A stretch of 64,000 nt of DNA from Kineococcus siccus (GTDB lineage: Bacteria; Actinomycetota; Actinomycetes; Actinomycetales; Kineococcaceae). The translations under genes were made by a program, and so were the position numbers. The notes beneath the pieces are model-generated. The model made no database searches, was not told the origin of the DNA, and saw only the letters and a list, made by a program, of their open reading frames with translations. The stretch lies in the NCBI RefSeq assembly GCF_009906795.1, contig NZ_JAAALN010000002.1, forward strand, positions 1 through 64,000, given 5' to 3'. Below, piece after piece: positions 36,762 to 38,379 of this stretch; position 1 is the stretch's first letter, and every line of letters starts with the position of its first letter.

Positions 36762-37661
36762 GTGTCCGAGCGCCCGACCGAGGTCGGCGACCCGTTCGTC
36801 GCCACGCAGTCCTACGACGCCGACGACCTGGCCGCTGACCACGAGGCCGACGTCGAGGCCGCCCAGGAGCAGGCCGCGGACACCCCGGACCTGCCTGTCG
36901 AGGACTTCGAGGCCGAGGCGCCCGGCGCCGAGGCCGCGGCCGAGGCGGACGTGCTCGACGCCGTGGCCCCCGAGGGCGCCGAGACGGCCGAGGACGTGGC
37001 CGGTGACCCCGACGCCGCCGTCGAGGACGCCGTCGTCGAGGACGCCGCCGAGGAGGAGGTCGACGAGGCCGAGGAGTTCCGCAAGCAGCTGCGCCGGATG
37101 CCCGGCGAGTGGTTCGTCATCCACAGCTACGCGGGCTACGAGAACCGCGTCAAGACGAACCTCGAGACCCGCATGACCTCCCTCAACATGGAGGACTACA
37201 TCTTCCAGGTCGAGGTCCCCATGGAAGAGGTCGTCGAGGTCAAGAACGGCCAGCGCAAGAACGTCCGGCGCGTCCGGATCCCCGGCTACGTCCTCGTCCG
37301 CATGGACCTCACCGACGAGTCGTGGGGCGCCGTGCGCCACACACCCGGCGTGACGGGCTTCGTGGGCAACACGCACCAGCCCGTGCCGCTGTCCAACGAC
37401 GAGGTCTTCTCGATGCTGGCCGCGACGCTCACGCCGAAGCAGGCCAAGACGGCCGACGGCAAGCCCGTGGCGGCCCAGCCCGAGCGCGTCGTCGACTTCG
37501 AGGTCGGCGAGTCGGTCACCGTCATGGAGGGGCCGTTCGAGACCCTCCCGGCGACCATCTCGGAGATCTCCGCGGACCGCCAGAAGGTCACCGTGCTCGT
37601 CTCGATCTTCGGCCGCGAGACCCCGGTCGAGCTGAGCTTCAACCAGGTCGCCAAGATCTGA
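36762..37661 (+). CDS. nusG: Transcription termination/antitermination factor NusG
   Basis: A 299-residue NusG. The first roughly 105 residues are a highly acidic, Ala/Glu/Asp-rich extension (over 40 acidic residues) without predicted fold, a feature of actinobacterial NusG. The NGN domain starts at [23 protein letters not shown] and includes [31 protein letters not shown]; the KOW domain is at the C-terminus ([46 protein letters not shown]). GTG start after GAAGGAAG. It binds RNA polymerase and the ribosome or Rho. Confidence 0.96.
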
Positions 37662-37670
37662 CCCGCCGCA

Positions 37671-37705
37671 CGAGAGGACCCCGGCCACCGGCCGGGGTCC
37701 TCTCG
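37671..37705 (+). terminator. nusG terminator hairpin
   Basis: CGAGAGGACCCCGGCC (37671-37686) and GGCCGGGGTCCTCTCG (37690-37705) form a perfect 16-bp stem with an ACC loop, nine bases after the nusG stop. No T-run. Its 3' arm is the first unit of the tandem repeat that follows. Confidence 0.85.
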
Positions 37706-37833
37706 CGTGCGGGGTCCTCTCGCGTGCGGGGTCCTCTCGCGTGCGGGGTCCTCTCGCGTGCGGGGTCCTCTCGCGTGCGGGGTCCTCTCGCGTGCGGGGT
37801 CCTCTCGCGTGCGGGGTCCTCTCGCGTGCGGGG
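37694..37833 (+). repeat. Tandem repeat, 8 perfect copies of a 17-bp unit plus 4 bases
   Basis: The unit GGGGTCCTCTCGCGTGC is repeated head-to-tail eight times without a mismatch (37694-37829) and ends with GGGG. The first copy is most of the 3' arm of the nusG terminator, so the array looks like local amplification of that arm. Every copy can pair with the single 5' arm at 37671-37682. The array stops 18 bp before the rplK -10 element, so its last unit occupies the -35 region. Frames through it are open but not coding (17 is not a multiple of three). Confidence 0.95.
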
Positions 37834-37851
37834 CGCCCCCGGCGCCTCGCG

Positions 37852-37857
37852 TAGACT
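37852..37857 (+). promoter_or_regulatory. -10 element of the rplK-rplA promoter
   Basis: TAGACT within GTAGACTGCTGCCACCG, a 17-base segment repeated with one change at the rplJ promoter (39281-39297). No TTGACA-like -35 is visible; the end of the 17-bp repeat array lies there. Confidence 0.7.
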
Positions 37858-37947
37858 GCTGCCACCGGCCTCAACCCCTCGTCGCCCGATCCGCGGGCAC
37901 CGATACGGCCGGCACGCCCCGCACCGGGGCCCGACGGAAGGACACGC

Positions 37948-38379
37948 ATGCCCCCCAAGAAGAAGGTCTCCGGCCTCATCAAGCTGCAGATCAAGGCCGG
38001 CATGGCGACTCCCGCCCCGCCGATCGGTCCCGCGCTCGGTCAGCACGGCGTGAACATCATGGAGTTCTGCAAGGCGTACAACGCCCAGACCGAGGCCCAG
38101 CGCGGGAACGTCATCCCCGTCGAGATCACGGTCTACGAGGACCGCTCCTTCACCTTCATCACGAAGACCCCGCCAGCCGCGGAGCTCATCAAGAAGGCCG
38201 CCGGCGTCGACAAGGGCTCGGGTGAGCCCCACGTGAAGAAGGTCGCGAACCTCACGCAGGCCCAGGTCCGCGAGATCGCCGAGACCAAGCTGCAGGACCT
38301 CAACGCCACGGACGTCGAGATGGCCTCGCGCATCATCGCCGGCACCGCCCGGTCGATGGGCATCACCGTCTCCGACTGA
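37948..38379 (+). CDS. rplK: 50S ribosomal protein L11
   Basis: A 143-residue L11: [48 protein letters not shown], with the Pro-rich thiopeptide-facing region, and the RNA-binding C-terminal domain ending [10 protein letters not shown]. Forms the GTPase-associated centre with 23S rRNA and is needed for RelA-dependent stringent response. ATG preceded by GGAAGGA. First gene of a two-gene unit with rplA, 101 bp apart. Confidence 0.98.

Follow-up and report, generated by a model that had tools for sequence, protein, structure and literature searches.

The spacer between nusG and rplK in this genome carries a tandem array of eight perfect 17-bp copies of GGGGTCCTCTCGCGTGC, arranged head-to-tail on the forward strand of the window (the whole stretch of 64,000 nucleotides analyzed here). 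We conclude that the array is a real and recent minisatellite, and probably a near-neutral one. In our judgment, it is quite likely a young, VNTR-like locus born by slippage, with little or no effect on termination after nusG because copy 1 already forms a local hairpin. The features of the region are as follows.

36762..37661, forward strand: nusG, with a GTG start and a TGA stop (37659-37661), 299 aa (TIGR00922, E 2e-60)
37671..37705, forward strand: post-nusG hairpin, with a 16-bp stem and the 3-nt loop ACC; arms at 37671-37686 (5') and 37690-37705 (3')
37694..37829, forward strand: GGGGTCCTCTCGCGTGC repeated in tandem eight times without mismatch; the 3' arm of the hairpin runs into copy 1 (37694-37710)
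37830..37833, forward strand: GGGG, an incomplete ninth unit that forms the direct-repeat flank on the 3' side, found too in the single-copy congener G007
37830..37848, forward strand: small inverted repeat GGGGCGCC-CCC-GGCGCCTC, including GGCGCC-CCC-GGCGCC, upstream of the -10 box
37852..37857, forward strand: presumed rplK -10 box TAGACT, from the comparison of 12 genus/family loci
37867..37910, forward strand: conserved rplK leader segment, GGCCTCAACC...TCGTCGCCCGATCCGCGGGCACCGATACGGCC
37948..38379, forward strand: rplK, encoding 50S ribosomal protein L11 (TIGR01632, E 1.3e-61)

nusG and rplK are 286 bp apart. The period-17 run between them extends without a mismatch from 37693 to 37833 (141 bp, 8.29 copies, 100% matches, score 282), with GGGG left over after copy 8 and a short GC-rich sequence between it and the TAGACT box. 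This score was the highest of the 13 tandem-repeat rows in the window, the runner-up reaching 73, and the 124 consecutive period-17 matches are more than chance. The initial annotation had described eight 17-bp copies without mismatch, and eight exact copies were indeed found. Minisatellite or VNTR loci consist of head-to-tail copies of a 10-100 bp unit; with 8.29 perfect copies of 17 bp, the array adds to the loci of this kind already known. In its own draft genome, it is the only array of its unit, and the three GGGGTCCTCTCGCGTGC matches found outside it carry 1-2 mismatches, with no array around any of them. A dispersed repeat family in this genome was considered and rejected; exact GGGGTCCTCTCGCGTGC is confined to the array. 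In the titles and abstract openings of the open-access literature searched, we found no description of this array or of tandem repeats in the genus, and seven of the eight matches for nusG-rplK dealt with Liberibacter or its citrus disease.

The genome is a draft of 495 contigs, and an assembly artefact, that is, a wrong copy number or a spurious array, was therefore weighed. Besides the draft state, the length of the run speaks for this explanation, since a k=127 de Bruijn graph can hold a period-17 run without a repeated k-mer up to 143 bp, just above the 141 bp seen here. However, the array, flanked by nusG and rplK, is internal to a contig of 80,673 bp, and assembly errors are expected to collapse, not expand, such repeats, as argued in the accessible part of PMC12817950. 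We regard an artefact as highly improbable. Nine copies would occupy 158 bp, above the 143-bp limit of the k=127 graph; therefore, eight copies may be a lower bound arising from short-read assembly.

The NusG product matched TIGR00922 over residues 117-299 with 203.6 bits (cut-off 135.7). Its N-terminus is extended by an acidic stretch of about 115 aa (window 36762-37110), inside which a 15-bp tandem repeat lies at 37011-37068. The hairpin downstream starts at the 10th base past the nusG stop codon and is stable (-50.7 kcal/mol over the 55-nt stretch 37661-37715, z -8.0). Every copy begins with 12 bases to which CGAGAGGACCCC in the 5' arm of the hairpin (37671-37682) is exactly reverse-complementary, and the GGCC that completes the 16-bp stem precedes copy 1 alone. 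It had been proposed that the first copy is the hairpin's 3' arm and that all copies are able to pair with the one 5' arm; copy 1 does overlap the 3' arm, and the second statement is true as sequence.

Measured against a canonical intrinsic terminator, the site has the stable GC-rich hairpin near the stop codon and lacks the U-tract: the tail directly past the stem is CGTGCGGGGTCC. A terminator scan of the region returned 0 sites. Because of the missing U-tract, we treat the hairpin as a putative intrinsic terminator only; protection of the 3' end, or action together with a termination factor, would be equally conceivable. Czyz et al. (2014) reportedly dealt with the U-tract requirement of mycobacterial RNA polymerase.

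The initial annotation had also suggested that the array reinforces termination by offering many alternative hairpins. Although each copy is complementary to the 5' arm, transcript folding did not bear this out. The 5' arm paired with copy 1 at a probability of 0.98 and with copies 2-8 at no more than 3e-7, and forcing it onto copies 2-8 cost 11.5-16.3 kcal/mol. These values alone make the alternative-hairpin mechanism unlikely, and the order of transcription counts further against it, as copy 1 is the first to be transcribed and leaves a loop of just 3 nt. A hairpin cluster would be a second route to reinforcement. Clusters of hairpins past stop codons are reported to take part in termination in the available portion of PMC8355165, and the RNA of the whole spacer folded better than shuffles (z -4.6), with the array RNA pairing copy to copy. 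This self-folding, however, is not particular to the array, as 128 of 300 permuted-unit arrays folded equally well, and a special self-structure of the array RNA was rejected. As far as the same portion of the source describes them, hairpin-cluster terminators share with the nusG site a strong GC-rich hairpin less than 80 bases from the stop and the lack of a U trail; unlike them, the nusG site has one 5' arm, for which the extra 3' arms cannot compete (PMC8355165). Taken together, it is very unlikely that the array reinforces termination after nusG through alternative 3' arms or a hairpin cluster.

We then compared the locus with its relatives. Two adjacent units (at most 3 mismatches) were found in one of 396 genomes of the order, namely the own genome, and in none of the other 395; likewise, none of the other 10 genus genomes (11 searched) contained them. 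An exact two-unit match was absent from genome_contigs and viral_contigs, two collections that may lack records from this genome or its close neighbours. Among 110 parsed nusG-rplK spacers, one held a perfect array of at least 3 copies (period 6-79). These spacers came from 111 loci (L076 was dropped as no NusG end was found), which were the closest RplK matches and are thus biased to near relatives.

The spacer of the congener G007 (locus L013) has a similar hairpin and promoter and ONE unit. Its layout is the hairpin, GGGGTCCTCGTGCGTGC, GGGG, CGCC and then a -10 box identical to that of the window, and the single unit is flanked by GGGG on each side. Copy number between these related genomes is 8 in the window genome and 1 at the orthologous site of G007, a difference between species only, with one genome per species in the comparison. 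In the other nine congeners and one other family member, the hairpin and a -10-like box were present and the array was absent.

A hairpin lies near the stop codon in all 12 genus/family loci, with differing sequences. Nine of them have unbroken stems of 14-19 pairs, and the stems of L011, L012 and L028 are interrupted; the comparison scored unbroken stems only, and these three were judged from their folds. The first 70 nt of the genus/family spacers gave z values of -3.0 to -6.9 against mononucleotide shuffles. Outside the family, the hairpin is less widespread: 20 of the 98 other spacers had an unbroken stem of at least 10 pairs within the first 90 nt. The -10 box is TAGACT in 9 of the 12 genus/family loci and TAAGAT, TACACT or TAGAAT in the remaining three, and begins 83-96 bases ahead of the rplK start. 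Conservation of the hairpin and the -10 box, but not of the array, points to constraint on the hairpin and the promoter and not on the array.

The G007 site also allowed the origin of the array to be traced. G007 is the closest of four congeners by four-fold differences in rplK (13/77, versus 19/76, 22/75 and 22/75); rplK was compared for all four, and nusG for G007 only. Ungapped nusG comparisons with L010-L012 were set aside as evidently misaligned, with differences at 156-163 of 340 first and second positions. With the array collapsed to one copy, the alignment with G007 contained 3 gap columns and 31 mismatches in 164, versus 122 gap columns when it was left uncollapsed. Unit positions 10-11 read TC in all eight copies and GT in G007, and the copies therefore stem from the arm version of the window lineage itself. 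Between the two genomes, 40 of 176 four-fold sites have changed (rplK plus the last 170 nusG codons). Among the copies, we observed 0 differences versus about 16 substitutions expected over the 119 added bp for an array as old as the split from G007, and the array is therefore recent or homogenised. Barring homogenisation, its age has a rough upper bound of 19% of the age of that split, although four-fold sites keep time imperfectly in highly expressed genes. Perfect identity of the copies could instead be maintained by conversion or selection.

A unit bounded by short direct repeats is the classic layout for a first duplication, whether by slippage or by template switching. The single G007 unit with GGGG on both sides fits the pre-expansion state, which argues for duplication between the 4-bp direct repeats followed by slippage. 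This single-copy site and the identity of the copies support the recent slippage expansion that had been proposed from the initial reading of the DNA, and the suggestion that the array is perhaps neutral also fits the evidence.

We envisage the following course of events. To judge from the single-copy relative, the ancestor would have carried a single unit that began inside the 3' arm of the hairpin and had GGGG on both sides. Replication slippage from one GGGG run to the other, possibly promoted by the strong hairpin, would have duplicated 17 bp, and once two copies were present, slipped-strand mispairing could have raised their number to eight or more. The added copies all lie past the hairpin and short of the rplK promoter, and the hairpin itself is intact. 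Such an expansion would be expected to have little or no effect on termination, and a small effect on the rplK promoter through the changed far-upstream DNA is possible. The hairpin may have driven the slippage; against this, the five other own-genome arrays of at least 3 copies in the sample have inverted partners of just 6-8 bp, and arrays abound in the congener samples too. Of the seven own-genome arrays listed, none has a nearby inverted partner as long as the 13 bp of the nusG-rplK array. In the congener G005, an array of 2.31 copies also has a 13-bp inverted partner (L234:13714).

On its rplK side, the array replaces the DNA upstream of the -35 region. A -35 element at 17-bp spacing from TAGACT would start at 37829, and the periodic run stops at 37833. 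The proposal that the array ends at the would-be rplK -35 is thus fair as to position, the last repeat bases overlapping it, but the promoter scan of the region gave 0 consensus sites and no sigma-70-type site. The -10 box was assigned by comparison. The small inverted repeat at 37830-37848 spans the -35 region and is kept in G007 with one loop base changed.

This arrangement raises the possibility that copy number alters the DNA upstream of the rplK -35 and tunes rplK-rplA as a phase-variable rheostat. Such tuning is possible by analogy with the promoter tandem repeats of M. tuberculosis, which in the accessible text of PMC12817950 are phase-variable, vary within isogenic populations and include an lpdA repeat of which four copies are reported to raise expression 12.5-fold over one. 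According to the same text, these intergenic VNTR loci share with the nusG array a short head-to-tail unit beside a promoter, a lineage-specific copy number and a structure hard to resolve by short reads. The nusG unit is 17 bp long, versus 54-58 bp for the cysG and lpdA repeats; unlike the M. tuberculosis repeats described there, it comes from a hairpin arm, leaves the core promoter unrepeated and is known from one genome sequence (PMC12817950). Against tuning, although the array adjoins the -35 region, neither a -10-like nor a -35-like box was seen in the unit by eye, the 26 bp ahead of the -10 box align to G007 without a gap and with one substitution, and no congener has the array. A core translation operon would also seem an unusual target for phase variation. 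We consider such a rheostat unlikely.

Short perfect head-to-tail units next to a promoter could also be a multiplied protein-binding site, serving as an operator or a decoy array. However, the exact unit occurs nowhere else in the own genome, its three near matches stand outside any array, the congeners lack the array, and the single unit of G007 is explained by the hairpin arm. We find this exceedingly improbable. The TAACTGA arrays of Beggiatoaceae, as described in the part of PMC4679880 at hand, are likewise short intergenic direct repeats, some of them near ribosomal protein genes; they are dispersed over many loci, mostly just before start codons, whereas the nusG array is a single locus.

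Further downstream, the rplK leader (37867-37910) is strongly conserved, occurring in the same place in 33 of the 110 nusG-rplK spacers by a strict search; a looser one (82/110 within 8 edits) included many chance matches. Outside the family, 21 loci had TGCAACCGGGTCATCGCCCACGGCGTCGGCCCA or a sequence near it, and the 12 genus/family loci had a related variant. No Rfam match for the leader was obtained in the window at E <= 1, and the consensus fold of the mixed alignment had 3 pairs only. Our guess is that the leader is possibly a ribosomal-protein operator.

To place the array in its genus, we surveyed perfect arrays in several genomes. The own genome contained 88 of them (period 8-119, at least 2 copies) in 440,114 unmasked bases, window included. 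Six had at least 3 copies; among these, the nusG-rplK array leads in copy number and alone has a period that is not a multiple of 3. Arrays of at least 3 copies numbered 3 in G007 (238,261 bases), 4 in G001 (400,000), 9 in G005 (388,000) and 9 in G009 (400,000), of which 0, 2, 3 and 1, respectively, had periods that are not multiples of 3. The congener samples have arrays of their own, so that a perfect tandem array is in itself a common feature of the genus. Arrays with 6.6-7.8 perfect copies lie at L171:12981 in G007 and at L243:7664 and L233:8868 in G005; their periods of 15, 21 and 27 are multiples of 3, and they lie perhaps in coding sequence. Counting open frames across an array was no guide at this GC content, as even the intergenic array of the window has 2.

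A different kind of repeat was observed in G001, in which the 12-mer GTGCTTGATCAC recurs at period 16 in head-to-tail runs that mostly face each other, such as >>>>>><< or <<<>>>>>. Examples are found at L193:7715-7823, L200:17747-17887, L202:18798-18841 and L205-L224. Tandem pairs with at most 2 mismatches numbered 102 in G001, with none in the other 10 genus genomes, and sorting of 100 listed places gave at least 45 separate loci. At 0 mismatches, G001 was the only match among the 396 genomes of the order. None of 12 elements examined was spanned by a predicted high-GC3 ORF, and for 5 of the 12 the longest adjoining high-GC3 ORF had its 3' end no more than 10 bp away, these ORFs being predicted. 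Both this family and the nusG array are hairpin arms multiplied in tandem; the family differs in having another sequence, in being dispersed and in having both arms multiplied.

It seems rather improbable, with one case at nusG and the GTGCTTGATCAC family of G001, that the tandem multiplication of one post-gene hairpin arm recurs in the genus and that the nusG-rplK copy number is then a possible heritable dial. If this were true, copy number could be such a dial between the gene of the transcription factor NusG and the L11-L1 operon. As it stands, the array is a clean natural example of the birth of a minisatellite, for which a sister genome shows the single-copy state, the 4-bp direct repeats and the descent from a hairpin. 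It would gain in importance if copy number varied within the species and changed the expression of the L11-L1 operon, or if the multiplication of hairpin arms were general in the genus.
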